Of a DNA stretch of 64,000 bases, positions 48,692 through 62,075 are shown in pieces (the first letter of the stretch is position 1; every line of letters begins with the position of its first letter). The notes under the pieces were generated by a model. That model saw only the letters and a program-made list of their open reading frames with translations. It made no database searches and was not told the origin of the DNA. The position numbers and the translations under genes are program-made. The DNA comes from Boseongicola sp. (GTDB lineage: Bacteria > Pseudomonadota > Alphaproteobacteria > Rhodobacterales > Rhodobacteraceae), in the NCBI GenBank assembly GCA_014075275.1, contig CP046179.1, positions 2,179,932-2,243,931 of the forward strand, given 5' to 3'.

Positions 48692-49678
48692 TCAGGTGCG
48701 GCGCGCCTCGCTCAGCGTCCAGGCGCGTTTGTGATACTTCAGCGCCTGGTCCAGATCGCCCAGGGTTTCAAACACATCCGCCAATGCACGGGCATAGAAT
48801 TGATCCCATAAAGAATAGTCCAGTTCTTTGGACAGCTTCGCGCCTTTCAGGAACAAATCACGGGCTTTTTCCAGATTGCCTCGTGTTCTTTCCATGCGCG
48901 CCTGATGCTGTGTGATTTGACAGCGGGCGCGATCATCGCAATCCGTATCCGCCAGCTTCATCCCTTTGGCGAAATGCTTCTCGGCCGCACCGAAATCTTT
49001 CAGCGCAACCAGACAGGCACCGGCGATTTCGTGGACGTATGGATTGACTACGCGGTTCTTGTGTCGGATCGCCAGTTTTAGGGCGGTTTCGGCGTGCTCC
49101 AGACCTCCGATTGGCGAATTGTCGGCCAGCATCCAACGCGCCACATTTTGTTCGACCCGTGCCAGTTCAGCGCCCTTCGCGGTCTCTCCTGCACGCCCCA
49201 GCAACAACCCGGCACTGGACCGGTCACCTTTGTAGCGCTCGATCGAAGCCAGGGTTGTCAGCAAATCGACATAGGCATTTCCGCCGGATTTTTGATCGAC
49301 CAATTCGATCCCGCGCTCGGCAGAACAGCGAGCAAGGTCCAACCGGTTGCGACTGTAATGGACAACCGCCAGGATAGAATACGTCTGCGCCCGCTCCCGG
49401 GGATGGTCCTTTTCCGACAGCAACTCTTCGACCTTCAGGGCCTGCTCCATTGCGTCATCAAAATGACCGCGCCACTTGGATTGCCAGGACAATGTCAAAA
49501 GCGCCAACCCGCGATGGCACCGGGCGCGCGTGCTGTCCCCCTCGGACGCCAGTTTCAGGGCTGCAGATGCATAAGATATGCTTTTTTCCCGACATGCCCA
49601 CCGGGCGTCCCACGCGATCCGGTTCAGTAAAGCCGGGTCACCATAGGTTTTGACCTCGTTGTTAAACGCCGTGTGCAT
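48692..49678 (-). CDS. Tetratricopeptide-repeat protein of unknown function
   Basis: 328 aa, all helical and rich in Ala, Leu, Arg and Glu. TPR-like units recur about every 40 residues (for example ARCHRGLALLTLSWQSKWRG, ERAQTYSILAVVHYSRNRLD, AEKHFAKGMKLADTDCDDRA, FYARALADVFETLGDLDQAL followed by KYHKRAW). No signal peptide or catalytic domain is seen. It is likely a protein-protein interaction scaffold; the neighbours give no clear partner. Confidence 0.8.
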   Translation of the reverse strand: MHTAFNNEVKTYGDPALLNRIAWDARWACREKSISYASAALKLASEGDSTRARCHRGLALLTLSWQSKWRGHFDDAMEQALKVEELLSEKDHPRERAQTYSILAVVHYSRNRLDLARCSAERGIELVDQKSGGNAYVDLLTTLASIERYKGDRSSAGLLLGRAGETAKGAELARVEQNVARWMLADNSPIGGLEHAETALKLAIRHKNRVVNPYVHEIAGACLVALKDFGAAEKHFAKGMKLADTDCDDRARCQITQHQARMERTRGNLEKARDLFLKGAKLSKELDYSLWDQFYARALADVFETLGDLDQALKYHKRAWTLSEARRT

Positions 49679-49915
49679 TATTCAGTCCGAGTATTCCGGC
49701 GACGCTTTTTTGAAACTGCGGTCACCGCTCTCATTCACAGTCCAACAATAATGAACCTAGATCGAAATTTCTTTGAGCATAGCGTAGATATAGACCCTCA
49801 CGTCAATGTGACAATCCCTCAATAACGGCGTCGCACCACCGACATCCGTGCCGCAAACAGACGTGCGCTTCGGCAGATGCCTCGCAAATCTGGGCGAAAT
49901 AGGCGGAGGGTATTC

Positions 49916-50872
49916 ATGAAGATTGGGTTTATCGGGCTGGGCAATGTTGGCGGCAAACTGGCAGGATCGATCCTGCGCAATGGATTTGATCTGACCGTGC
50001 GTGATCTGGACCGCGGCTTGGCGCAACCCTTTCTGGATCAGGGTGCCCATTGGGCCGAAAGCCCGGCCGAAATGGCCGCGAATGTCGACTATTTGATAAC
50101 CTGCCTGCCCTCGCCCGCCGCCTGCGCTGCGGTCATGGAAGGTGCAGACGGAATTCTGGCTGGGATCACCCCCGGCACCATCTGGGCAGAGATGTCGACC
50201 ACCGATGCCGACGAGGTGCGTCGCATGGCCGAACTGGTGACAGCCAAGGGCGCAAGTGCCATCGATTGCCCTGTTTCGGGGGGATGCCACCGTGCCGCGA
50301 CGGGCAATATCTCGATCTTTGCAGGCTGTGATCGCGAGACCTTTGAGCGCGCGTTGCCGGTTTTGACGACGCTCGGTCGGCGGGTTTTGCACACAGGTGA
50401 CATTGGGTCTGCTTCAGTTCTGAAAGTCATGACCAACTATCTGGCCACCGCGAACCTTCTGACCTGTTGCGAGGCGATGGTGACCATGAAGGCCGCAGGG
50501 CTTGATCTGGCAACTACTTACGAGGCGATCCGCATCTCCTCTGGCACATCCTTCGTGCATGAAACCGAAAGCCAGGTCATCCTGAACGGCTCCCGCGACA
50601 TCAACTTCACAATGGACCTGGTGCTGAAAGACATTGGCCTGTTCCAGAAGATCGCCGAGAACGCCGGTGTTCCCCTGGAAATTTCACCGCTGATGATCGA
50701 CATCATGCGGGACGGGCAGTCTCGTTACGGGGATCGCGCCCAATCCGACGACATCATCAAAAGGTTGGAAGAGGCGACGGGTCTGGACATCACAGCCCCC
50801 GGTTTCCCGTCCGAAATGCTGGACGATGAACCCGAAGAGAAGGGCCACGAGGTGGTTGTGAAACGCGGCTGA
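49916..50872 (+). CDS. NAD(P)-dependent beta-hydroxyacid dehydrogenase (3-hydroxyisobutyrate dehydrogenase family)
   Basis: 318 aa. MKIGFIGLGNVGGKLAGSIL is the Rossmann motif; DCPVSGGCHRAATGNISIFA is the substrate-binding signature, and the catalytic Lys is in SVLKVMTNYLATANLLTCCE. Homologues act on 3-hydroxyisobutyrate, tartronate semialdehyde or gamma-hydroxybutyrate. The ATG at 49916 has GGCGGAGGG upstream. Its neighbours (TPR protein, methyltransferase) do not reveal the substrate. Confidence 0.9.
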   Translation: MKIGFIGLGNVGGKLAGSILRNGFDLTVRDLDRGLAQPFLDQGAHWAESPAEMAANVDYLITCLPSPAACAAVMEGADGILAGITPGTIWAEMSTTDADEVRRMAELVTAKGASAIDCPVSGGCHRAATGNISIFAGCDRETFERALPVLTTLGRRVLHTGDIGSASVLKVMTNYLATANLLTCCEAMVTMKAAGLDLATTYEAIRISSGTSFVHETESQVILNGSRDINFTMDLVLKDIGLFQKIAENAGVPLEISPLMIDIMRDGQSRYGDRAQSDDIIKRLEEATGLDITAPGFPSEMLDDEPEEKGHEVVVKRG

Positions 50873-50890
50873 TGCGCCCTAGACTTGGCC

Positions 50891-51523
50891 ATGGCTGACA
50901 AACCTGACCTCGATAGCGCCTATGCGTTGAATGCTGCAGACGACAATCGGCAATTCTATCGAGACTGGGCCGCGTCCTATGACGAGGTATTCGTCGCCGA
51001 AACATCATACCAATTGCCGGACATGGTTGCGGCAACATACCTGCAACTTGCCGGTGAATGGCCCTGTCTTGATGCGGGTTGCGGCACAGGGGCCTTGGGC
51101 GAACATCTGGCGTTTGGCGCAGTGGTGGATGGGGTCGACCTGTCGTCCGACATGCTGGCGGTCGCGGCGACAAAAGGCCGTTATCGAAACCTCGTGGAAG
51201 CCAACCTGAAAGAGCAATTGCCATTCGATGATGGTGAATATGCGGGCCTGATCTCTTCCGGCACCTTCACCCACGGCCACGTCGGCCCTGAAGCCTTCGA
51301 CGAACTCACCCGCATCCTGCGTTCCGACGCCTTGGCGGTGATCAGCATAAAGCCCGAGGTTTGGGAAAGCCACGCCTTTGGCCCGGCGTTCGATGTCTTG
51401 GTTGGCAAAGGGCTGATCACCGGGCCTGAGATTGCCGAGGTGAACGTATACCGTGACCCGACCATGGCACCCGACGGTCACGGCGATGATCGCGGGCTCA
51501 TCGTGACCTTCCGCAAGGTCTGA
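50891..51523 (+). CDS. Class I SAM-dependent methyltransferase
   Basis: 210 aa. Motif I is [20 protein letters not shown], followed by [18 protein letters not shown] and the later [20 protein letters not shown]. It is of the generic methyltransferase_11/25 type; the substrate is unknown. The ATG at 50891 is used; a TTG two codons upstream is less likely. rluE follows after 7 bp. Confidence 0.86.
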
Positions 51524-51530
51524 TCCGCAG

Positions 51531-52073
51531 ATGCCCCGCGTCATCCTGTTCAACAAACCCTTCGGTGTGCTGTCGCAGTTCACCGACGCGAAATCCCCAA
51601 CCGAGCGCCCCACCTTGTCGGGGTTTGGCCTGCCAAAAGAGGTCTATGCCGCAGGTCGTCTGGATCGCGACAGCGAGGGCTTGCTGGTGCTAACAGACGA
51701 TGGCCGCCTGCAAGCCCGCATCGCCAGCCCACGCACGCAGACGGAAAAGACCTATCTGGTGCAGATCGAGGGCGACCCCGCCGACGCCGACCTTGCGCCC
51801 CTGCGCAGCGGAGTCACTCTTAAAGACGGCCCAACCCGCCCGGCGAAAGTCTCGCTTATCGAGCCACCTGACCTCTGGCCCCGCGATCCACCCGTGCGGT
51901 TCCGAAAATCGGTGCCTGATAGGTGGATCGAGGTCACTATCTCTGAGGGACGCAATCGACAAGTGCGCCGAATGACGGCGGCAGTTGGGTTGCCGACACT
52001 GCGGTTGGTGCGAATGCACGTTGGGATCTGGGGGTTGGACGGGCTTTCGCCAGGGGAGTGGCGCGAGTTCTAG
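51531..52073 (+). CDS. rluE: 23S rRNA pseudouridine synthase, RluE/RsuA family
   Basis: 180 aa. The catalytic Asp lies in [38 protein letters not shown] is the RsuA/RluB/E/F motif III. It starts directly with the catalytic domain ([13 protein letters not shown]) and lacks the N-terminal S4 domain, as RluE does. RluE modifies U2457 of E. coli 23S rRNA; the same target here is inference. Confidence 0.9.
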
Positions 52074-52454
52074 GGCGGCAGATTGCTGACAGTGCGATTT
52101 GGACAGCTATTCCCCGCGGCTGGTTACCGACCGCAACCTGTGGGTTTAGTGCCCTGAAATTTGGTCCCGCAGTCCACCACTGCTATGAAACAGGGCACCC
52201 TCCAGCCTGCGACCCATGAGTATCAACATGCCAAAAGATGTTCTGGTTACCGGCGGATGCCTTTGTTGGTCGTGTCAGGTGCACCGGCCCCAATATCTCA
52301 TCCGAACATTCGTGCACTTGCGTGCACTTATCGAGATTCAGGAAAAAACATTTCCCGCGGTGAAGGCTTGAAAATTTCCTATGAACCTAAATGCAAGACA
52401 CATCTCAACTTTTCAAAGCAGACGTTCGATTTCTCTGCGACCAATGCTGGCAAT
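52074..52454. other. Intergenic region between rluE and the insertion element
   Basis: About 380 bp. A 126-codon open frame starting at 52161 lacks a Shine-Dalgarno and any recognisable domain and runs into the IS end, so I do not call it. A short direct repeat GTGCACTT occurs near 52312 and 52322. Nothing else is seen. Confidence 0.5.
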
Positions 52455-52468
52455 GACCGCTTCGAGCC

Positions 52469-52486
52469 GATTTTGTTGAAAAAGTC
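52469..52486 (+). repeat. Left terminal inverted repeat of the IS1182-type element
   Basis: GATTTTGTTGAAAAAGTC pairs with the right repeat at 54001-54018 (reverse complement GATTTTGTTGAAAAACTC), one mismatch. Confidence 0.75.
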
Positions 52487-52556
52487 GTTTGGTTTTGTGC
52501 TTTGGGGATGGTTACGGCGTATATTTTATTGGGCAGTCTGAGGCGGTACCGCCGCG

Positions 52557-53939
52557 TCATCCTGCGGCTGGCACCATCGGCGTGAGTTTGGCTAGTTTCC
52601 GGAGGTTTTGGGCTGCTGCTGCGAGAGTAAACTCGTCTTGGACGCCGCAGGGTCCACGTAATCGGAGCCGCCCGAGGCCAAGGATGCGTTTGAGGTGTGC
52701 AAAGAGCATCTCGACCTTCTTTCGTCGTTTCTGTGCGGTGACATTGAACTCTGACGCCATGCATCGGCGGGCGAAGTCCCGGACGATTTCGTATTTCTCG
52801 CGATGGACGGCGCGGGCCTCGGCGTTGGGGCAGCATTTTTCCTTCAGCTCGCATCCTGTGCAATCGGACTTCAGCGCTCGATACTTGCGAGCTTTCCAGC
52901 TTGGCGCGTTTCGAGCCGGGTCAGAATAGGTCCGCCAAGTGTGCCGCATCTCTTTGCCGCCCGGACAGATATAGCGGTCGTTCTCATCGTCCCACGTGAA
53001 GTCGGATCGTGAGAACGTTCCGTCCGTGCGCTCACCTTTGTCGAAGACAGGAATGAAGGGAAGGATTTGGCGCTTCAATGCGAGCCAGACAAGATTGTCT
53101 TCTGATCCATATGCGGTGTCCGCAGCGATCCAATCGGACTTCACACCAAAACGTTCTTCGGTGCGATCGAGCATTTTGCGCATGGCACTTATTTCAGCGG
53201 TCTTGTTGGACCGACTGGCATCTACGTCCATGATGATACTGTGATCGGTATCGATCAGATAATTAGTAGAATACGCAAAGAAAGCCGGGCCTTTACGTGC
53301 AGCCGTCCATTGGCTGGCGGGGTCGGCATGGGCCATGAACTTGGGCTTGACCGTGGAGGCTGCACCAAAGGCCTCGTCGTCCAAGGTGTCGAGATACTCG
53401 CGCACTGCGCGCGGCGCGTTATTGGGATCAATGTCACGGGCGGCCCAGTCTTCGGGATTGCTGGAGTTTTGCTTCTGAACATCCGCACTGATCAAACTGG
53501 CATCAACAGCAAAACCCTGACCGCCCACCAGTCCTTCTTCCATGCTGCGTGCAACCGTGGTCTCGAACACATGGCGCAGCAGATCGCTCTCACGGAACCG
53601 ACCATGGCGGTTCTTCGAGAAGGTCGAGTGGTCTGGAACTTGGTCGGTCAAATTCAGCCGGCAAAACCAGCGGTAGGCGAGGTTCAGATGAACCTCTTCG
53701 CAGAGCCGGCGTTCTGACCGAATACCAAAGCAATACCCCACCAACAGCATCCGAATGAGCAGTTCCGGATCAATGGATGGACGGCCTGTGTGACTATAGA
53801 AATCCGACAGATGCGCCCGGATACTGCTCAGGTCAACGAACCGGTCAATCAACCGAAGAAGGTGGTCTTGAGGGACATGATCCTCCAACGAGAACTCATA
53901 GAACAACGCCGCCTGTGCTTCCTGCTTAGGTCCCATCAT
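52557..53939 (-). CDS. IS1182 family transposase
   Basis: 460 aa and apparently intact. The N-terminal InsH/DUF772 domain (HLLRLIDRFVDLSSIRAHLS; GRPSIDPELLIRMLLVGYCF) is followed by FAVDASLISADVQKQ, a DDE catalytic core with DTAYGSEDNLVWLALK, the Cys-rich DDE_6-like segment CTGCELKEKCCPNAEARAVH, and the C-terminal EMLFAHLKRILGLGRLRLRG stretch. An intact frame suggests a recent arrival or an active element. Confidence 0.93.
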   Translation of the reverse strand: MMGPKQEAQAALFYEFSLEDHVPQDHLLRLIDRFVDLSSIRAHLSDFYSHTGRPSIDPELLIRMLLVGYCFGIRSERRLCEEVHLNLAYRWFCRLNLTDQVPDHSTFSKNRHGRFRESDLLRHVFETTVARSMEEGLVGGQGFAVDASLISADVQKQNSSNPEDWAARDIDPNNAPRAVREYLDTLDDEAFGAASTVKPKFMAHADPASQWTAARKGPAFFAYSTNYLIDTDHSIIMDVDASRSNKTAEISAMRKMLDRTEERFGVKSDWIAADTAYGSEDNLVWLALKRQILPFIPVFDKGERTDGTFSRSDFTWDDENDRYICPGGKEMRHTWRTYSDPARNAPSWKARKYRALKSDCTGCELKEKCCPNAEARAVHREKYEIVRDFARRCMASEFNVTAQKRRKKVEMLFAHLKRILGLGRLRLRGPCGVQDEFTLAAAAQNLRKLAKLTPMVPAAG

Positions 53940-54000
53940 CGCAAAACCCTCCCTATCCGTACGATGAATTGAATCAGCAGTTCATTCCACGATCAAGCAT

Positions 54001-54018
54001 GAGTTTTTCAACAAAATC
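54001..54018 (-). repeat. Right terminal inverted repeat of the IS1182-type element
   Basis: GAGTTTTTCAACAAAATC is the inverted partner of 52469-52486; it lies 62 bp upstream of the transposase start. Confidence 0.75.
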
Positions 54019-54032
54019 AGCCCATTTCGACC

Positions 54033-54383
54033 GATGCTGCGCTGCATTCGAACGGCAGCTTTCGTGACCCAATTAAGAAACACGCCCTATTCACGGCTCG
54101 TCCGAAAAACACCATTCGAAGCACGTGCAGAATGACCTCTACCAACCCATTGCGCATCACAGAATTGGTCGCGTTGTGCCCGTTCGCGGCCTGGGCATGT
54201 CGGCGCCGAGAACTGACTGATCAGTAGAAGATTGCAACCAGATTGATTTTACTGGCTTTTTATCGTTTACTGCTCAGGCACCTCACTCGTCGTGCATACG
54301 ATTTAGTGTGTGCAATGTGTTGTGGTGCCTTGCGGTGCTTTGCTTTGGACTCGGCTCGCAGGCTGTATCTCTGGGAGAATAAA
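54033..54383. other. Leader region upstream of the small secreted protein
   Basis: About 350 bp between the IS end and the ATG at 54384, with no supported gene. It holds the candidate promoter at 54243-54271 and a long 5' leader. An in-frame upstream ATG at 54243 would add 47 residues lacking export-signal character and is not used. Confidence 0.5.
54243..54271 (+). promoter_or_regulatory. Candidate sigma-70-type promoter
   Basis: TTGATT (54243-54248), a 17-bp spacer, then TTTACT (54266-54271). It lies 112 bp upstream of the small secreted protein ATG. Confidence 0.35.
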
Positions 54384-54695
54384 ATGCGTATCTCAACTTT
54401 CTTAACTGCCTCCGCCATGGCTTTGATCGTCGGTTCAGGTTCTGGTTTCGCCGGCGAACAGGCAGCCCAGCCCACACTGGGCGGACCGGTCGTTCTTTCG
54501 GATTCTGAGATGGATCTTGTAGTTGCCGGCGACTCGCTCGGGGTGCCGTCGACGACCGTGTCAGATATCCCCGATGTTATACATGACACTTGGTCGAGCT
54601 TAGCTGATAACGAAATCGGGAATTTTTATAACCAAGGGACTGCAAGTTCCCCTGCACCGTTTCACATTGGAATCCCGACCGCCGTCGACAATTAG
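54384..54695 (+). CDS. Small secreted protein with a double-glycine-like leader motif; candidate C39/Fap-like substrate
   Basis: 103 aa, no named family recognised. GGGAGAATAAA precedes the ATG. Residues 1-23 form a Sec signal peptide (MRISTFLTASAMALIVGSGS, then GFA). Residues 38-49, LSDSEMDLVVAG, closely resemble the LSxxELxxVxGG leader of C39-processed bacteriocins, with Ala-Gly in place of Gly-Gly. Residues 50-103 (54 aa) would be the mature part: low in charge and rich in Ser, Thr, Asn, Asp and Pro, with no cysteine. It lies upstream of a C39-like peptidase and a barrel protein on the same strand. Inference: the precursor goes to the periplasm by Sec and is trimmed after Ala48-Gly49. It could also be an unrelated exported peptide. 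Confidence 0.65.
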   Translation: MRISTFLTASAMALIVGSGSGFAGEQAAQPTLGGPVVLSDSEMDLVVAGDSLGVPSTTVSDIPDVIHDTWSSLADNEIGNFYNQGTASSPAPFHIGIPTAVDN

Positions 54696-55006
54696 TCATT
54701 CATTTTTTCGTATGTCCCAACTATGTCGACCTGCCCGCATATCATTAACGCGGCGGTATTCTAGTGATGTTTTTTGTTTTTCGCTGATACTTGCCGTGCC
54801 CTCAATCTTAATTGGGCATGGCTGGCTAACCACTACGGGGGGTTGGCGAGCATCGTGCGAAGAATGTCGGATGACCGTCCACGCCGTTGACCCATCCGAC
54901 CCAACGCCGAACATACATACCCAACCGGGAGGGGTCTGACGGCTCCTTCCGGTCCTGCTCATAAAGCCGGGCCGCACGCGCCCTCGTGAGAGTCCGAATT
55001 ACCACA
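54696..55006. other. Intergenic region between the candidate substrate and the peptidase
   Basis: About 310 bp with no supported gene. Short frames exist but lack ribosome sites and recognisable content. A T-rich stretch (CATTTTTTCG) follows the substrate stop without a clear stem, so no terminator is called; read-through into the peptidase gene is possible. Confidence 0.5.
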
Positions 55007-55099
55007 ATGCCGACCTATCGTTGCCCCGGTGCTTGCCGTTGCAACGTGGAACTGAGAGTCAGCGGCGAAAGGGTTAGGGACCTGATTTGCGTTCGGTGA
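55007..55099 (+). CDS. Possible 30-aa cysteine-containing peptide overlapping the peptidase start
   Basis: ATG at 55007, TGA at 55097-55099. Its four cysteines, in YRCPGACRC and LICVR, suggest a zinc-ribbon-like half; the partner half is missing. It ends 13 bp inside the peptidase gene, so it could be a leader peptide for translational coupling, or a chance frame or gene remnant. There is no strong Shine-Dalgarno (CACCACA). Confidence 0.25.
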   Translation: MPTYRCPGACRCNVELRVSGERVRDLICVR

Positions 55100-55629
55100 A
55101 AGTTCTATCAGCAGGTCTTATCCTCGCGGCAGCAACGGGCCTGCACTCGCTTCAAGTCAGCGCTGGCACGCTCTCGCTGAAGGAAATCCGCGAGGCGGGC
55201 GTCATCATCCAGAAGTGGGACACGAGCTGCGGGGCCGCTGCCATGGCGACCGTCTTTACCTATACCTTCAACGATCCGGTTTCCGAGCGTGAGGTGGTCA
55301 ACGGGCTGTTGCGTCAGACCGAACCCCTGAAGGTGCGCCACCGGGGCGGATTCTCGCTCCTCGACATGAAGCGCTACGCAGCAGAGCGCGGCTACCGCGC
55401 CATTGGCTTCAAGGGGATGCGCTTCGAGGATATCCGCTACCTGGATGCCCCAATCGTGCCGGTGCAGATCCACGGCTACAACCACTACGTGGTCTACAAG
55501 GGGCTGACACCCGACGGGAAAGTCCATGTGGCCGACCCGGCCTATGGCAACCGCAATCTCAGCCGCGAGCGGTTTGAAAACGCCTGGATCGAAGGCATCG
55601 CCTTCGTGATGTTGAGGGGAAAGAAATGA
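55087..55629 (+). CDS. Periplasmic C39-like cysteine peptidase (FapD-like)
   Basis: 180 aa. A signal peptide (LSAGLILAAATGLHSLQVSA) precedes a C39 peptidase domain with the catalytic Cys in QKWDTSCGAAAMATVF, the His in IHGYNHYVVYKG and the Asp in VHVADPAYGNRN. The domain is stand-alone, with no ABC-transporter parts, so it would act in the periplasm, like FapD of the Pseudomonas Fap amyloid system. The start is TTG 55087 with AGGGA 6 bp upstream. Its TGA overlaps the barrel gene ATG (ATGA), so both are made together. This pair is visibly more GC-rich than the flanking island genes. Confidence 0.85.
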   Translation: MRSVKVLSAGLILAAATGLHSLQVSAGTLSLKEIREAGVIIQKWDTSCGAAAMATVFTYTFNDPVSEREVVNGLLRQTEPLKVRHRGGFSLLDMKRYAAERGYRAIGFKGMRFEDIRYLDAPIVPVQIHGYNHYVVYKGLTPDGKVHVADPAYGNRNLSRERFENAWIEGIAFVMLRGKK

Positions 55630-56612
55630 GATATGTGTTCGTACTCGCGCTACTGTTGCTGCCCGCTTGGCCTGCCTCGTCGCAGACGGTCGAGGAGTTG
55701 AAGGCCCAACTCGCGGCCCAGAAGCTGATCAATGAACTCTTGAAACAGCGCGTCGAGACGCTGGAGGCCGAACTGGTGGGCCGCGAGATCGCACCGCCGC
55801 CAAGGGCCGAGGCGCCCGCGCCCGAGATCGGCGCCGAAGACCCGGAGGGCGACCGGGCGCTGGAGCGGGCCCTGGTGCGGCGTGGCAATGCCGTTCTGTC
55901 GCCTTACACGGTCGAGGTGACGCCGAGCCTGTCGTGGAGCCATTCGGGCCGTGATGCGCTGAGCTCGACCCGCGACACCTATGCGGCTGGCCTTGATGCC
56001 CGGGTTGGATTGCCCGGGGGGTGGATGCTTGGTGCCAGCGTGCCCCTGCTCCACCGCGACATTGACGGGACCGGCGACAACACCGGGCTCGGCGACATCT
56101 CGGTGACGGCCTGGAAATCCTTCTGGCCGCAGGACGGCACCTGGCCGTCGCTGGTCGGCAGCATCCGCTACGGCGCCCCGACCGGTGAGGACTTCTCTGA
56201 GGATGACGTGCCACTAGGGTCCGGCTTTCACCGGGTCACCGGGCGGCTCTCGGCGGTCAAGACGATCGACCCGATCGCGTTCTTCGGAGATGTCTCCTAC
56301 ACCCATTTCCTCGGCGAAACGATCTCCGGTGTCGATGTGGATCGCAGCGGCGTGATCGGGTTCGGCTTCGGCGCAAACCTGGCAGTGACGCCTGACATCT
56401 CTCTGAGCGCGGGTTTCGACTTTGCCTTCGAGGATGAAATCGAACTGAACGGCTCCAAGATCGACGGCACGGCCACCACGTTCGGGCTATTCGAACTGGG
56501 CGCTGACTTTGTCCTGACGCGGGACATCTTCCTCAACCTTTCTGCGGGGGTCGGCATCACCGACGACAGCCCCGACGTTATTCTGGGGGCCTCGCTCCCG
56601 ATAAGGTTTTAA
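55626..56612 (+). CDS. Outer-membrane beta-barrel protein with N-terminal coiled coil (FapF-like)
   Basis: 328 aa. Residues 1-19 are a signal peptide (VFVLALLLLPAWPAS). Residues 20-50 are a heptad-like coiled coil (TVEELKAQLAAQKLINELLK then QRVETLEAEL). A Pro/Ala-rich linker (APPPRAEAPAPEIGAEDPE-like, around 58-75) follows, then a barrel of about 230 residues with alternating hydrophobic strands, ending in LPIRF with the terminal Phe used for outer-membrane assembly. A coiled-coil plug on a MetA-pathway/porin-like barrel is the plan of FapF, the Fap amyloid secretion pore. It is coupled to the C39-like peptidase gene. Confidence 0.8.
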   Translation: MRYVFVLALLLLPAWPASSQTVEELKAQLAAQKLINELLKQRVETLEAELVGREIAPPPRAEAPAPEIGAEDPEGDRALERALVRRGNAVLSPYTVEVTPSLSWSHSGRDALSSTRDTYAAGLDARVGLPGGWMLGASVPLLHRDIDGTGDNTGLGDISVTAWKSFWPQDGTWPSLVGSIRYGAPTGEDFSEDDVPLGSGFHRVTGRLSAVKTIDPIAFFGDVSYTHFLGETISGVDVDRSGVIGFGFGANLAVTPDISLSAGFDFAFEDEIELNGSKIDGTATTFGLFELGADFVLTRDIFLNLSAGVGITDDSPDVILGASLPIRF

Positions 56613-57032
56613 GGTTCCGTTTCGATCGACCTCGGCGGGCTGTTTGGTGCACCCTGCATGTCTATTCTTGACACATTTCGGAAATAACCTCAAAGGCGGG
56701 AATCGCGACTAAACCGGACCTTGGAAATCTTTCGCGAACGGCAGCTTCGTCCGCAAAGCGGACATTTACCGCAACGCGCATCAACTTTCGCTATGCGGAC
56801 TCTTCTGACTTTCACCGAGCGAGGCGCTGAGCGGTTCAGCTGCGCTAGATTTCAAGCAGGCGCCGAAGGTAATTTGGGTTCCAGGAGAAGCAACCGCTAC
56901 TCAGCAGGAGTGCGCAAAGTCCAAGCTACAGACTGACCAGACTGAATTGAATCTCGCAGCCGAAACTAAATACCTTCGAATCTCTCAAAAAAACTTGCCG
57001 TTTGCCGAGGGCTCGCTATCGTACGGTGGACA
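56613..57032. other. Intergenic region between the two barrel-type genes
   Basis: 420 bp. A 71-codon frame at 56721 has no ribosome site or recognisable content and is not called. TCCGCAAAGCGGACATTTACC near 56750-56770 contains a dyad (GTCCGCAAAGCGGAC) that could be an operator or part of a dispersed element. A promoter for the gene at 57033 is expected here. Confidence 0.5.
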
Positions 57033-57818
57033 GTGGGGGTTAGAAACTTGAAAATAATACCTATTTGGGCCGCGCTTTCTGCGACTGCATTTTTATTCGG
57101 CGTTTCGCCGTTGGTTGCGCAAGACGCTGCAAAAAGGACTTTGAAGACTGATCTGAGATTCTCGGAGTCGAGTTTGGGCACGTCATCGTTCGATAATGTT
57201 CGCATGTCCGTCACGTACTCCGCAAAAGGATCAGATGGCGTCGCAAATCATTACACGCTGTCCTATTCGGAAATGAACGGCGGGAACCCGCCTTTGCCTG
57301 ATTTTGAAAACAACGCTGCCGGCTTTCAGTACGCGCGTTCCGGGCCAATCAATTCTCGCGGTTTGAGTTACTGGATCGGTGCTTCATACGGCACCTTGGG
57401 CGCGACAGCCGACACATTTGAACTGGACGGAGAAAGCTTCGGTGTCTTCGCGGCATTGGGCCAGGCGATACCGCTCGATGATGTGAGTGGAGTGCATATT
57501 TCCGGCGGTGTCCGGCAAGTCTGGCGCAGTGATGATTCTGCTGTGGACCCTGGAGATTTGACGATGGGGCACTTGGGGATCAACTATGTTCGGCGGGTTG
57601 GAGAAGCAAGTGTGGCCCGTTTGGGTCTGCTAGGACTTGTCGCGAACGATGCGCTTACGCTGTCGGAAGAGGACCACGTAGTTTCGGTATCAGTAGGGTT
57701 CGAAACGCCTTTGGGCGCGAAGGATTCTCCTTATCGCGTCATGATCGAAGCGAGTACTGATGTTACTGGAAACCACGAAGCTAATGCGCTTGGATTTGCG
57801 CTGAAACGCTCATTTTGA
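57033..57818 (+). CDS. Outer-membrane beta-barrel-like protein of unknown function
   Basis: 261 aa from GTG 57033 or 256 aa from TTG 57048; GGGGG before the TTG favours the latter. The signal peptide is IPIWAALSATAFLFGVSPLV ending at AQ. The rest alternates polar and hydrophobic residues with many Gly/Ser turns (MSVTYSAKGSDGVANHYTLS; GLSYWIGASYGTLGATADTF) and ends ALGFALKRSF, with the C-terminal Phe of outer-membrane barrels. No named family recognised. It is followed by a lipoprotein gene after 9 bp. Its base composition is lower in GC than the FapF-like gene. Confidence 0.65.
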   Translation: MGVRNLKIIPIWAALSATAFLFGVSPLVAQDAAKRTLKTDLRFSESSLGTSSFDNVRMSVTYSAKGSDGVANHYTLSYSEMNGGNPPLPDFENNAAGFQYARSGPINSRGLSYWIGASYGTLGATADTFELDGESFGVFAALGQAIPLDDVSGVHISGGVRQVWRSDDSAVDPGDLTMGHLGINYVRRVGEASVARLGLLGLVANDALTLSEEDHVVSVSVGFETPLGAKDSPYRVMIEASTDVTGNHEANALGFALKRSF

Positions 57819-57827
57819 GGGAATGCT

Positions 57828-58220
57828 ATGAAGACGTTCAAACGATCAAGGTTGGTTATTTTCCGCTCAGTTGGATTGATTGGTATTGCCGTCGCTTTAG
57901 CTGGCTGCGACGAGAATTACAGTCCGAATTTCGACGCGCCTTTAAAAGCGCCTTCAAGAGAGCCCGTTGAAGAAAAGCCCATACTCACGATAGGTGACGG
58001 GTCAAACCCAAGCGGCTTCACGACCGGAACAAGTACAACGCGCACCAATGTAGACGTTAATGTAAGCGATTTGAATCAGGAGGAGCCGAAACCTGTAGAT
58101 TTTTTCAACGCCGACCTTACCGGGACCAAGGTTCAGGTTGCGGTTGAGGAAGAACCTCCGGGAGCTCAACCGGCAAATACTTATACCATAGTGATTGAAT
58201 CGATAAGGAATTGGTTCTGA
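57828..58220 (+). CDS. Small lipoprotein of unknown function
   Basis: 130 aa. The N-terminal basic region and hydrophobic stretch (SVGLIGIAVALAGC) end in a lipobox, LAGC, so Cys is lipidated; the next residue is Asp, which in E. coli rules favours inner-membrane retention. The rest is Pro/Glu/Thr-rich and disordered-looking (APSREPVEEKPILTIGDGSN), and it ends VIESIRNWF. No family recognised. AGGGAATGCT precedes the ATG; it is cotranscribed with the barrel-like gene upstream. Confidence 0.7.
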   Translation: MKTFKRSRLVIFRSVGLIGIAVALAGCDENYSPNFDAPLKAPSREPVEEKPILTIGDGSNPSGFTTGTSTTRTNVDVNVSDLNQEEPKPVDFFNADLTGTKVQVAVEEEPPGAQPANTYTIVIESIRNWF

Positions 58221-58717
58221 CGGCATTTGGGTGCTGGAGAGATTGCGTTCGTCTTGGAATGGGACTGAACATCCGGTTCCGGTCATCTCGCACCGCTTTA
58301 GGATCAAAGGCATGACCTGATGTTTTCAGCCGGTCATGCTGGCATTTCCAACGCGCCAAAGGTCTGCATTGGGCTCCAAGCGGTCATTCATCGAACCCAC
58401 TCAAATGCCTCGCCCCAAAACACCACCGCGCCAAACCTTCCACCACCTCACCACCTCACGTCCCCTAAATTCGCGTCGAAATCCGCCCCTGAGAAAACAG
58501 TTAACGCCGCAGTAACCTTCGTTGCGCGCGCACCAGATTTTGTGGGTTCGTCACCGTTCGGTGATACAGGCACCGACGTGATACCGACGTATTACCGACG
58601 CGATACCGAAAGGCCATTTCTCACGATTTCCGCTTATTTCACGCGATTAACGCTTCAGGTGTTGCGCCGCAACACCCAGACTCAAAAGCACGCAGCATTA
58701 AGACCTCGATAATACTC
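58221..58717. other. Intergenic region between lipoprotein and apt
   Basis: About 500 bp. It holds the 11-bp tandem array at 58571-58613 and a stretch near 58363-58395 (CTGCATTGGGCTCCAAGCGG) that looks like a dispersed Roseobacter-type repeat. A 130-codon frame from 58320 spans both repeats and is not called. Confidence 0.55.
58555..58613. repeat. 11-bp tandem repeat, three full units plus a partial
   Basis: Units CACCGACGTGA (58571-58581), TACCGACGTAT (58582-58592), TACCGACGCGA (58593-58603) and partial TACCGAAAGG, preceded by CACCGTTCGG. The reverse complement matches the two-unit array at 36400-36436 including the CGAACGGTG flank. The period of 11 bp is about one DNA turn. Confidence 0.8.
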
Positions 58718-59260
58718 TCAAGCGCCCTCAAATTCGCACAGCACATGCACATCCATGCCCAGCGCCTCGATCTTCTTGCGCCCGCCCAGTTCCGGCAAAT
58801 CCACAATGAAGGCACAGCCGATAATGTCACCGCCCATCTGCTCGATCAGCTTGATCCCGGCTTCTGCCGTGCCGCCGGTCGCCAGCAGATCATCCACCAC
58901 CAAAACCTTCTCACCCGCCTGAATGGCGTCATGGTGCACTTCCATAATCGCCTCGCCGTATTCCAGCTTGTAATCCTGGCTCAAAGTCTTGCCGGGCAAC
59001 TTGCCCTTCTTACGGATCGGCACAAATCCCACCGACAATTGATGCGCAATCGCGCCGCCAATAATGAACCCCCGCGCCTCTAATCCTACAACTTTATCAA
59101 TCTGTTCGCCCGCATAAGGATGCAGCAGTTGGTCCACACAAATCCGAAACCCGCGCGGATCAGCAAAAAGTGTAGTGACATCGCGGAACATGATGCCTTC
59201 ATGGGGGAAATCCACAATTGTGCGGATGTAGTCTTTGACGGTTTTCTTGCGGTTATTCAT
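58718..59260 (-). CDS. apt: Adenine phosphoribosyltransferase
   Basis: Salvages adenine to AMP. 180 aa from ATG 59260 ([12 protein letters not shown]). The PRPP-binding motif [20 protein letters not shown] is intact; [20 protein letters not shown] and [20 protein letters not shown] are apt signatures. A longer frame from 59287 is possible. mtnP, which yields adenine from methylthioadenosine, lies about 0.8 kb away on the same strand, with a dsbA-like gene between them. Confidence 0.96.
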
Positions 59261-59324
59261 GATCGGCCCTGTCTGATCCCAACCCAATCATCGAAACCGG
59301 TGAGCATCGAAATGGCAAGTAAAT

Positions 59325-60086
59325 ATGAGTGAAAAACAACGCCCATCCCGACGCAACCTCCTACTGGGGCTTGGAACATTTGCTCTGGTCGGCGGCGGCT
59401 GGCAGGCTTGGATCCGCCGCCCGCGGGCACTGGAGTTTACCGATATCGACGGCCTTCCCGGATGGCGGCAAACTGTCCTCGACGGGATGTCCGTCTCTCG
59501 CAGCGGCCTGTCCGGCGTCGCCTTCGCCGGACTTGATAGCTCTGCGGACCAGACCGATCCTCTGCCAGCAAACCGCCTGTGCCGAACACTATTTGAACAC
59601 GACATACCTGGCAAAGTTCCGGTCGCCGCATTCTCCGATTTCTTCTGTCCCTATTGCCGCGTTCTGACCGGTCGTCTGGCCGAGCGTGCCAGTGATCCCG
59701 CCTCGGACATCTCTATATCCTGGCACGAGTTACCGCTTCTTGGCCCGTCCTCGATCGTTGCGGCCAAGGCTGCCATTGCCGCTGATTTACAGGGCGGATA
59801 CGCCGAATTTCAGGCTCGGCTCATGGGCGGCACTTTCCGACCAACCGCCCGTTATCTTACAGATTCTGCATCCTCAGCCGGTCTACAAGCAGGCAAACTC
59901 ATCCTCGATATGGATGGCCAGATCGTAACCGGCCGCCTGTCACGCAGCCGCGCCGCCGCACGCACGCTTGGCATATTTGGCACGCCAGCAATTGTCGTTG
60001 GCCGCACGTTGGTCATGGGCGAAATTAGCGACCGCGATCTGGATACTCTGATTGAAATGGAACGCGAGACACCCGCTCGCTGCTAA
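59325..60086 (+). CDS. DsbA family thioredoxin-like protein
   Basis: 253 aa. A twin-arginine-like signal (SRRNLLLGLGTFALVGGGWQ) is followed by a DsbA/thioredoxin domain with CPYC in FSDFFCPYCRVLTGRLAE and the cis-Pro loop GIFGTPAIVVG. It likely oxidises or isomerises disulfides of exported proteins, or could be a BdbD/Com1-type relative. Its last bases overlap the convergent mtnP stop by 4 bp. Confidence 0.88.
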   Translation: MSEKQRPSRRNLLLGLGTFALVGGGWQAWIRRPRALEFTDIDGLPGWRQTVLDGMSVSRSGLSGVAFAGLDSSADQTDPLPANRLCRTLFEHDIPGKVPVAAFSDFFCPYCRVLTGRLAERASDPASDISISWHELPLLGPSSIVAAKAAIAADLQGGYAEFQARLMGGTFRPTARYLTDSASSAGLQAGKLILDMDGQIVTGRLSRSRAAARTLGIFGTPAIVVGRTLVMGEISDRDLDTLIEMERETPARC

Positions 60087-60961
60087 AGCATTCGCCCCGC
60101 CACAGCATCCAGTTTTGCAACCAGTTCTGCGTCACGTTTTTCGGGTGCGGTCATGATGGCAAATTCCAATGCCCGGTCGCACCTATGGGGGCACGGAGCA
60201 CGCTTACTTGTCAGCAATTCCGGCAGGCTGGCGACCAGCCCGCGTGCCTTTTCTGCGTTGCCCATCAGGGTCTGAATTATCTGCGTAACATCAACCTCGC
60301 CATGGTCAGGATGCCACGAGTCATAATCCGTAATCATCGCGACACTCGCGTAGCAAAGCTCGGCCTCACGCGCCAGTTTCGCCTCGGGCATATTGGTCAT
60401 CCCGATCACATCACAGCCCCAAACCTCGCGATACATCCTAGACTCTGCCAGCGTTGAAAACTGCGGCCCCTCCATCGCCAGATATGTGCCGCCCCGATGC
60501 ACATTGATACCCGACGCATTAGCCGCTACCTCGCAAGCGTCGCCAAGACGCGGACAGGTCGGATGCGCCACACTCACATGTGCCACACAGCCCGTGCCAA
60601 AGAACGATTTCTCGCGCGCGAACGTGCGATCAATGAACTGATCTACAATCACAAAATCGCCCGGTGCCATTTCCTCGCGGAACGATCCGCAGGCTGAAAC
60701 ACTGATCACATCCGTGACCCCCAACCGCTTCAGCGCATCAATATTCGCACGATACGGAACCGTCGTTGGTGAATGCGCATGGCCGCGCCCATGTCGCGGC
60801 AAAAATGCCATCTGAACACCGCCTAAAGAGCCGGTCAAAACCTGATCCGATGGCGCTCCCCACGGGCTCTCTACACTCACCCACGCGGCACCTTCCAACC
60901 CATCAATGTCATAAATCCCGCTGCCACCAATGACACCGATCATGGTTGTGGTTCCGCTCAT
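60083..60961 (-). CDS. mtnP: S-methyl-5'-thioadenosine phosphorylase
   Basis: Splits methylthioadenosine into adenine and methylthioribose-1-phosphate. 292 aa. IGVIGGSGIYDIDGLEGAAW at the N-terminus and FLPRHGRGHAHSPTTVPYRA, YLAMEGPQFSTLAESRMYRE and VIGMTNMPEAKLAREAELCY are PNP/MTAP signatures. The adenine product feeds apt nearby. Confidence 0.94.
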   Translation of the reverse strand: MSGTTTMIGVIGGSGIYDIDGLEGAAWVSVESPWGAPSDQVLTGSLGGVQMAFLPRHGRGHAHSPTTVPYRANIDALKRLGVTDVISVSACGSFREEMAPGDFVIVDQFIDRTFAREKSFFGTGCVAHVSVAHPTCPRLGDACEVAANASGINVHRGGTYLAMEGPQFSTLAESRMYREVWGCDVIGMTNMPEAKLAREAELCYASVAMITDYDSWHPDHGEVDVTQIIQTLMGNAEKARGLVASLPELLTSKRAPCPHRCDRALEFAIMTAPEKRDAELVAKLDAVAGRML

Positions 60962-61022
60962 GCCGTTCTCCCTGAATGAACCGAAAACTTAGCGACCAAT
61001 CAGCGATGATCAAGCCGACAGA

Positions 61023-61793
61023 TCAAAAGCTCGCGTAAAAGTAATAAGCAGTCAGACAACAGCCAAAAATGATGATCCCCGTCCGCATAGCCGCCAATGG
61101 TGCACGCGCTGACAACATCCCGCCAAGGTATCCACCAATTGTCGCGCTGATCATCAGGATGAAGGCGAATTTCCAGGCCACCGTGCCGGACAAAGCAAAG
61201 ACCAGAACCGAAATGACGCTGATCGCAAATGAAATAACGTTCTTCAAAGCGTTTGCTGCCCTAAGATTATCAAAGCCAACAAGTATCAACGCCGCCAACA
61301 AAATCTGCCCGATACCGGCTCCGAAATAGCCGCCGTAGATGGAGAATCCGAATATCAAGGTCGCGGTCCAAACCTGACTTTCGCCACCCGAATTCGAACC
61401 CCATCTGGTGACCCAACTCCGCATCGTCGGCGCAAGGGCAAACAAAAGCGTTGCGAAACCGATGAGATATGGAACAGCAGATTCAAAAACCGCATCGCCA
61501 AAGTACAAAAGCAAAAGCGCTCCGACTAAACCGCCGATTGTCCCGGCGATAACTGGCACGATCATCACTCGCCCCAGGCTTTTCAGCTCGTTGCGCAATG
61601 GCGGCAGCGCGGCACCATAGGCCGGCATCAATGCCACCATATTTGTTGTGTTGGCCACGAGTGGCGGCAATCCAGCCCAGACCAGCACAGGAAACGAAAA
61701 AAACGTGCCGCCACCCGCAATGGCGTTCACTGCCCCCGCCAGCACTCCTGCCGCTGAAAGAACGAGAAAAATTTCAAGTGTGATTGTTTCCAC
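61023..61793 (-). CDS. TauE/SafE family sulfite/anion exporter-like permease
   Basis: Integral membrane protein of about 256 aa with seven or eight hydrophobic segments. LAGAVNAIAGGGTFFSFPVL, LVANTTNMVALMPAYGAALP and the second-half GYFGAGIGQILLAALILVG are the TauE repeats. The GTG at 61793 has GGGGA 5 bp upstream; ATGs at 61832 or 61862 are possible but the latter runs into the small-RNA terminator. The substrate is unknown. Confidence 0.86.
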   Translation of the reverse strand: METITLEIFLVLSAAGVLAGAVNAIAGGGTFFSFPVLVWAGLPPLVANTTNMVALMPAYGAALPPLRNELKSLGRVMIVPVIAGTIGGLVGALLLLYFGDAVFESAVPYLIGFATLLFALAPTMRSWVTRWGSNSGGESQVWTATLIFGFSIYGGYFGAGIGQILLAALILVGFDNLRAANALKNVISFAISVISVLVFALSGTVAWKFAFILMISATIGGYLGGMLSARAPLAAMRTGIIIFGCCLTAYYFYASF

Positions 61794-61839
61794 GCGCGTC
61801 CCCGCAGCTTTGCACACTGCACAGAAAGTCATTTCTACA

Positions 61840-61936
61840 CAAAAGAAAACCCCCGCTTGCACAAGCAGGGGCTTACTTTTTAGAGTCCCCGGCGCCGCAG
61901 GCTGGGTGGGGGCTGTTAATCCGCGACACCGGGGAT
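61840..61936 (-). ncRNA. Candidate structured small RNA
   Basis: Minus-strand RNA of about 95 nt in a gap between divergent genes. Hairpin 1: arms 61923-61934 and 61887-61898 give 12 continuous pairs, two of them G-U only when read as minus-strand RNA (they become A-C mismatches on the plus strand). The 24-nt loop carries CAGCCCCCACCCAGCC. Hairpin 2 (61850-61872) is a terminator with T-run TTTTCTTTT. A C-rich loop plus terminator suggests an antisense-type sRNA that binds G-rich ribosome sites. No promoter was fixed and no known family was recognised. Confidence 0.5.
61841..61872 (-). terminator. Intrinsic terminator, minus strand
   Basis: Stem CCCC-T-GCTT / AAGC-GGGG with loop GTGC (one bulged T), followed by GTTTTCTTTTG on the minus strand. 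It lies upstream of the TauE start and cannot end any protein gene close by, which supports the small-RNA reading. Confidence 0.75.
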
Positions 61937-62075
61937 AGCGTCTTTTCGCTACGATTCCTCAATGAAGCTCAACTTGGGCAAGAACAGGGGGGGTTCGGGA
62001 CCGGGCCGGGGTAATATTGTGGCGAAGTTTGGGCGAGGGTTGATTTGCGGCGCGGATGCGGGCAGGATTCAATGT

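Follow-up and report, generated by a model that had tools for sequence, protein, structure and literature searches.

The locus examined here raises the question of what a stand-alone C39 peptidase and an outer-membrane barrel, encoded by overlapping genes, do with the small exported protein encoded upstream of them. The locus lies in a stretch of 64,000 nucleotides of the chromosome of Boseongicola sp., which we call the window, and a first-pass annotation of its sequence described it as a minimal relative of the Fap functional-amyloid system of Pseudomonas. Because it has one substrate, one protease and one pore, and a leader that can be recognised, such a module offers the simplest case for studying how periplasmic C39 peptidases choose their targets and how substrates reach FapF-like pores.

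Features of the locus, with positions in the window and the basis of each assignment
Feature	Position	Strand	Basis
Duplicated block, 4308 bp, two chromosomal copies	52452-56759	.	blastn, borders read
IS1182-like transposase (DUF772 + DDE_Tnp_1_6)	52557-53939	-	Pfam
Small exported precursor, 103 aa	54384-54695	+	ORF list
Predicted signal peptide of the precursor, residues ~1-23	54384-54452	+	home-made signal-peptide rule
Putative double-glycine-type leader LSDSEMDLVVAG, residues 38-49	54495-54530	+	sequence; motif-bearing proteins at related loci
Predicted mature peptide, 54 aa	54531-54692	+	computed composition
Stand-alone C39 cysteine peptidase, predicted periplasmic, 180 aa	55087-55629	+	Pfam, NCBIfam, alignment, fold search
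Predicted FapF-like outer-membrane pore, 328 aa	55626-56612	+	sequence, model, Foldseek

The peptidase, which starts at the TTG at 55087 (with the GTG at 55096 as an alternative), matches Pfam Peptidase_C39 with an E-value of 2e-14, and the NCBIfam models of FilB and FapD with E-values of 2e-33 and 4e-29, both under the curated cut-offs. It had been described as a stand-alone C39-like enzyme with Cys, His and Asp, and this holds: the catalytic-type residues Q42, C48, H133 and D150 are invariant in an alignment across 14 relatives. Its model is closest to the C39 domains of PCAT1 and ComA and to the double-glycine protease 6mpz, which was solved together with a leader peptide. An ABC exporter was also considered and ruled out: the protein stands alone, with 180 amino acids and no ABC domain. 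In the tree, the window peptidase groups with those of loci L138 and L147 (100/98), then with those of Chromatiaceae (98/93), and belongs to a separate clade of 12 rows (98/97); the Fap-type loci fall in the sister clade. Its company there includes Chromatiaceae and two alphaproteobacterial relatives that have the same trio. It is outside the FapD clade, so that "Fap-like" is a correct label for the module, and "Fap" a wrong one.

The ATG of the barrel gene overlaps the stop of the peptidase gene as ATGA (55626-55629), as annotated, and the predicted coiled coil is present in the model of the protein. The barrel resembles FapF by sequence (E-value of 7e-12), and matches the NCBIfam FapF model with an E-value of 8e-15 and 54.6 of 700 bits, a score under the equivalog cut-off. 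The model, of moderate confidence only (pLDDT 63.5), contains a signal peptide, a coiled coil at residues 22-51, a linker, a short helix at residues 77-85 that sits where the plug of FapF is, and 12 main strands between residues 96 and 323. A Foldseek search with this model returns FapF chains as its best 18 matches, and the COG4313 channel next. With a FapF-type sequence and a predicted fold that combines an N-terminal coiled coil with a plug helix and a 12-stranded barrel, the protein is related to FapF. Structural comparison yields a C39 fold for the peptidase and FapF for the barrel; rather than pointing to unrelated families, both family models and folds place the peptidase with FapD/FilB and the barrel with FapF/FilC.

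The exported protein of 103 amino acids announced by the first-pass annotation is indeed there as an open reading frame, with the sequence GGGAGA a short distance 5' of its ATG. The motif LSDSEMDLVVAG stands C-terminal to its likely Sec signal peptide, and fills the positions of a double-glycine leader with L at -12, S at -11, E at -8, M at -7, V at -4, A at -2 and G at -1. Since the motif has the form of a double-glycine leader, it can be read specifically as a cleavage signal, and the predicted cut is after residue 49. Glycine is the usual residue at position -2 of C39 substrates; the leader of the window has alanine there, and ends in AG, not GG. The double-glycine leaders of bacteriocins, unlike LSDSEMDLVVAG, are not preceded by a Sec signal peptide, and the C39 domains of ABC exporters recognise such leaders in the cytosol. 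A leader behind a Sec signal peptide is what a periplasmic peptidase would need.

The reading that we favour, and consider probable, is a minimal two-step module: export by Sec, then cleavage of the leader by a periplasmic C39 peptidase, with exit through a FapF-like pore. Going by its sequence, the precursor would be carried across the inner membrane by Sec, and its signal peptide removed. The peptidase would then recognise the leader in the periplasm and cut after AG, a step for which family-wide co-occurrence of motif and peptidase offers support. The freed peptide of 54 amino acids would leave through the pore, which, by homology with FapF, may be gated by the plug helix and the periplasmic coiled coil.

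A different reading is that the small protein is not a substrate, that the peptidase acts on the barrel or on proteins encoded elsewhere, and that the motif is incidental. The gap between the precursor gene and the peptidase gene downstream is 391 bp, so co-transcription of the former is not assured, and it has been suggested that FapD cleaves FapF (PMC5557850). However, the gene order of the trio is kept in L138 and L147, and the motif is enriched beside stand-alone C39 peptidases, which makes this reading very improbable in our judgement.

The relatives that bear on cleavage of a leader behind a signal peptide are of several kinds. Most of the first, plasmid-borne relatives have a motif-bearing protein beside the peptidase-barrel pair, for example the hemocin precursor with LSQKEMSEVKGG and FilA of Acinetobacter with MDDAALSAATGQ. 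The same trio is present in L138, with identities of 72% for the peptidase and 57% for the barrel, and a precursor in which a signal peptide (MRTK...ALA) is joined to the leader LSDTQMDSVVGG; in L147, where the 5' end of the gene is incomplete, the leader is MTDAEMDGVVGG. Chromatiaceae also have the trio, with leaders LSAAQMDQVVAGG, LSPAQMDQIVAGG and MTAAEMDQVVAGA, and other alphaproteobacteria have leaders LSATQMDSVAAGG and LSAAQMDEVTAG. In these relatives, the leaders resemble one another, while the mature parts vary both in length and in sequence.

As a test of the pattern on new data, a C39 profile was applied to 398 genomes from the phylum and 385 from the class; it cleanly separates stand-alone C39 genes from ABC exporters and yields 67 stand-alone loci, studied in stretches of up to 19 kb each; L034 and L145 are apparently one record, hence one of the 67 is not independent. 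With a barrel profile built from earlier loci, a FapF-like barrel is found at 65 of the 67, in 64 cases within 3 kb. Exported ORFs were recognised with a home-made and crude signal-peptide rule: in a first run, the strict motif is present in 41 of the 546 exported ORFs at 3 kb or less, and in 0 of the 524 beyond 4.5 kb. A slightly wider rule gives 42 of 697 against 0 of 643 (Fisher test, 6e-13, a P-value that is too favourable, the rule being home-made and the loci partly related to one another), and 38 of the 42 are on the strand of the peptidase. Strict matches occur at 32 of the 67 loci, so that about half have none; a looser pattern, shaped after FapE had been seen, is matched by 66 of 697 near ORFs and 4 of 643 far ones, at 44 of the 67 loci. 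At 20 ABC-type C39 loci, no exported ORF has the motif; instead, 11 small ORFs there have a leader at the N terminus and lack a signal peptide. The motif occurs beside stand-alone C39 genes more often than by chance, and the pairing of peptidase and barrel with an exported motif-bearing protein, whose absence would have counted against the annotation, is found repeatedly. Applied to the many peptidase-barrel gene pairs, the leader rule can reveal unknown secreted peptides encoded next to them.

Some of the loci have features of their own. In L116 (8924-13367, genome G428), a substrate-peptidase-substrate unit is duplicated in tandem beside one barrel gene. Two small, mobilizable plasmids, L027 (Acinetobacter sp. 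TR11, 6.3 kb) and L030 (E. coli, 5.9 kb), each encode a C39 peptidase together with a barrel-like protein, and their product is bacteriocin-like; the precursor of L027 has a signal peptide and LSNQEMKDTQGA.

The predicted mature peptide of the window contains no K or R, has a pI of about 4, and is neither repetitive nor rich in N/Q. Most likely it acts outside the cell or on its surface. The first-pass annotation had allowed for an exported peptide, an amyloid-like protein or a bacteriocin-like factor: the first is favoured, and the acidity and lack of repeats of the product count against the other two. There are precedents for a module whose product is bacteriocin-like or self-lytic: the hemocin plasmid and the gonococcal nap island. 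Plasmid p250 of Avibacterium follows the same logic, with an exported hemocin precursor, a C39 peptidase and the beta-barrel HmcD; in the nap island, GG peptides, the C39 peptidase NapP and the FapF-like NapF promote autolysis (PMC11798529); and bacteriocin-like products are found on plasmids L027 and L034. However, the Naps are cationic, the composition of the window peptide argues against a cationic bacteriocin, and no immunity gene was recognised between 54384 and 56612; we thus hold a bacteriocin to be unlikely.

The small protein could also be an amyloid or matrix subunit, in which case the module would be a reduced Fap system. The pore and the protease are of Fap type, and long N-rich repeat proteins adjoin the same genes in L024, L025 and L032, but a product of 54 amino acids without repeats is unlike a Fap subunit. 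The annotation had seen no FapA, FapB, FapC or FapE in the module, and we concur: none was recognised among the ORFs of 49000-62000, where FapB/FapC subunits and FapE were sought. Given also the place of the peptidase in the tree, we find an amyloid subunit doubtful. The N-rich proteins are a subject in themselves: at L024 (3390-4397), L025 (3245-4531), L032 (3671-4696) and L028 (2711-4459), they have repeat units such as SGNDNSDNS, SNRASGYNT and QNNGDGN beside C39 peptidase genes, three of the four loci have a FapF-type barrel, and the proteins are possibly fibre subunits of undescribed Fap-like systems.

Returning to the module as a secretion system for one small peptide, we now turn to its origin. 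A duplication, absent from the first-pass annotation, includes all three genes: the block is made of an IS1182-like element and these three passengers, and its second copy (G000:C1:2824567-2828874, or L003:7568-11875), 100% identical by blastn, sits between sugar and alcohol metabolism genes. The element spans about 52464-54014; its ends, GAGCCGATTTTGTTGAAAAA / ...TTTTTCAACAAAATCAGCCC, are inverted and match imperfectly. It is present at full length, without passenger genes, at two more places, 1258708 and 1526769. No IS-like right end was found at 56759, and no target duplication was seen around the borders of the block. Its right end lies in GCAGCTTCGTCCGCAAAGC; as this sequence is present only at the two copies, it is not, as first supposed, a palindromic repeat spread over the genome. 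The module was probably duplicated recently, together with the IS1182-like element. Downstream of the block, and outside it, are genes for an exported protein of 261 amino acids without Pfam match (57033-57818) and a likely lipoprotein of 130 amino acids (57828-58220).

The G+C content is 0.61 in the peptidase gene, 0.65 in the barrel gene and 0.54 in the small gene, for 0.56 in the window. Relatives had been expected in other Rhodobacteraceae, an expectation that fails: no close relative of the module was found in 296 sampled genomes of the family, and no relative of the precursor in 100. Because the module is rare in its own family, and its nearest relatives are in other families, it was probably acquired horizontally.

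The same arrangement recurs in dozens of bacteria besides this one, and hints at what the target of FapD may look like. FapD is periplasmic, and its catalytic Cys is needed for secretion (PMC5557850); Rouse et al., in 2017, called its target unclear and wrote that the Fap proteins have no canonical C39 sequences (PMC5557850), and a 2018 review, which reports fapD-fapF pairs in five further phyla, described the substrate as still undetermined (PMC6173800). These two statements are the reason why a candidate matters. No described cleavage site was found for FapD in the literature after 2018, or for hemocin processing. In Fap-type loci, the FapE-like protein, assigned by the position of its gene between fapD-like and fapF-like genes, bears, behind its signal peptide, motifs such as ELKDAEMADLRG-R, ELKDQELAQLRG-K or LDDTELNAMRG-R, which makes the FapE leader a concrete candidate for the FapD site. 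Among the Fap proteins, Rouse et al. report complete N-terminal processing for FapE alone (PMC5557850). Their FapE peptide gap reaches about 70 residues (PMC5557850), which is beyond the leader site, so the fit is incomplete. It is tempting to conjecture that FapD-FapE, FilB-FilA, hemocin, Nap and the window module all follow one general proteobacterial pathway, from Sec to periplasmic C39 cleavage of a leader to a FapF-like pore, with the FapE leader (~ELKDAEMADLRG-R) as the FapD site: our belief and our doubt in this generalization are evenly balanced.

How does the module compare with known systems? The nap island of Neisseria gonorrhoeae (NapABC, NapP, NapF), described in 2025 and thus before the present locus, is the closest architecture: it shares the small GG-motif peptide, the stand-alone C39 peptidase, the FapF-like pore and horizontal acquisition (PMC11798529). 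The trio is complete in the window, with a leader that ends in AG, but one acidic product replaces several cationic Naps, and napR, napH and napI are extra genes of the island (PMC11798529). For the inner-membrane step, its authors propose the holin-like NapH (PMC11798529); the precursor of the window carries a Sec signal peptide instead.

The Fap system of Pseudomonas (FapA-F) shares the periplasmic C39 peptidase and the FapF pore with coiled coil and plug (PMC5557850, PMC6173800), and a similar leader behind the signal peptide of FapE. The module differs by its one small substrate, the lack of FapA/B/C/E and a peptidase of another clade: the module operates like Fap and Nap but is not Fap, and a minimal relative with a different, small substrate was an apt description. 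The hemocin (Hmc) operon of p250 shares a precursor with Sec signal and LSQKEMSEVKGG, a C39 peptidase and the barrel-like HmcD, although HmcD does not match the NCBIfam FapF model and matches a Pfam barrel family only weakly; unlike the module, the operon has genes for an AAA-ATPase and for immunity. The fil genes of Acinetobacter (FilA-FilF) share the C39 peptidase FilB, the FapF-like FilC, and a FilA with MDDAALSAATGQ behind a signal peptide, but their substrate is larger and contains DUF6160, and more genes follow downstream. At L026 (3649-4518), the FilA/DUF6160 N terminus MDDAALSAATGQDG resembles such a leader; part of this Pfam family, so far uncharacterised, would thereby gain a suggested function. 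Finally, peptidase-containing ABC transporters, as in class II microcin export, share the C39 fold and the double-glycine leader, but their peptidase is cytosolic and fused to the exporter, and their leaders are at the extreme N terminus, without signal peptide. The architecture is thus already known, being common to the nap island and Fap; the apparent novelty lies in the general Sec-plus-leader rule, with its extension to FapE as predicted FapD site, and in the two identical 4.3-kb copies with their IS1182-like element.
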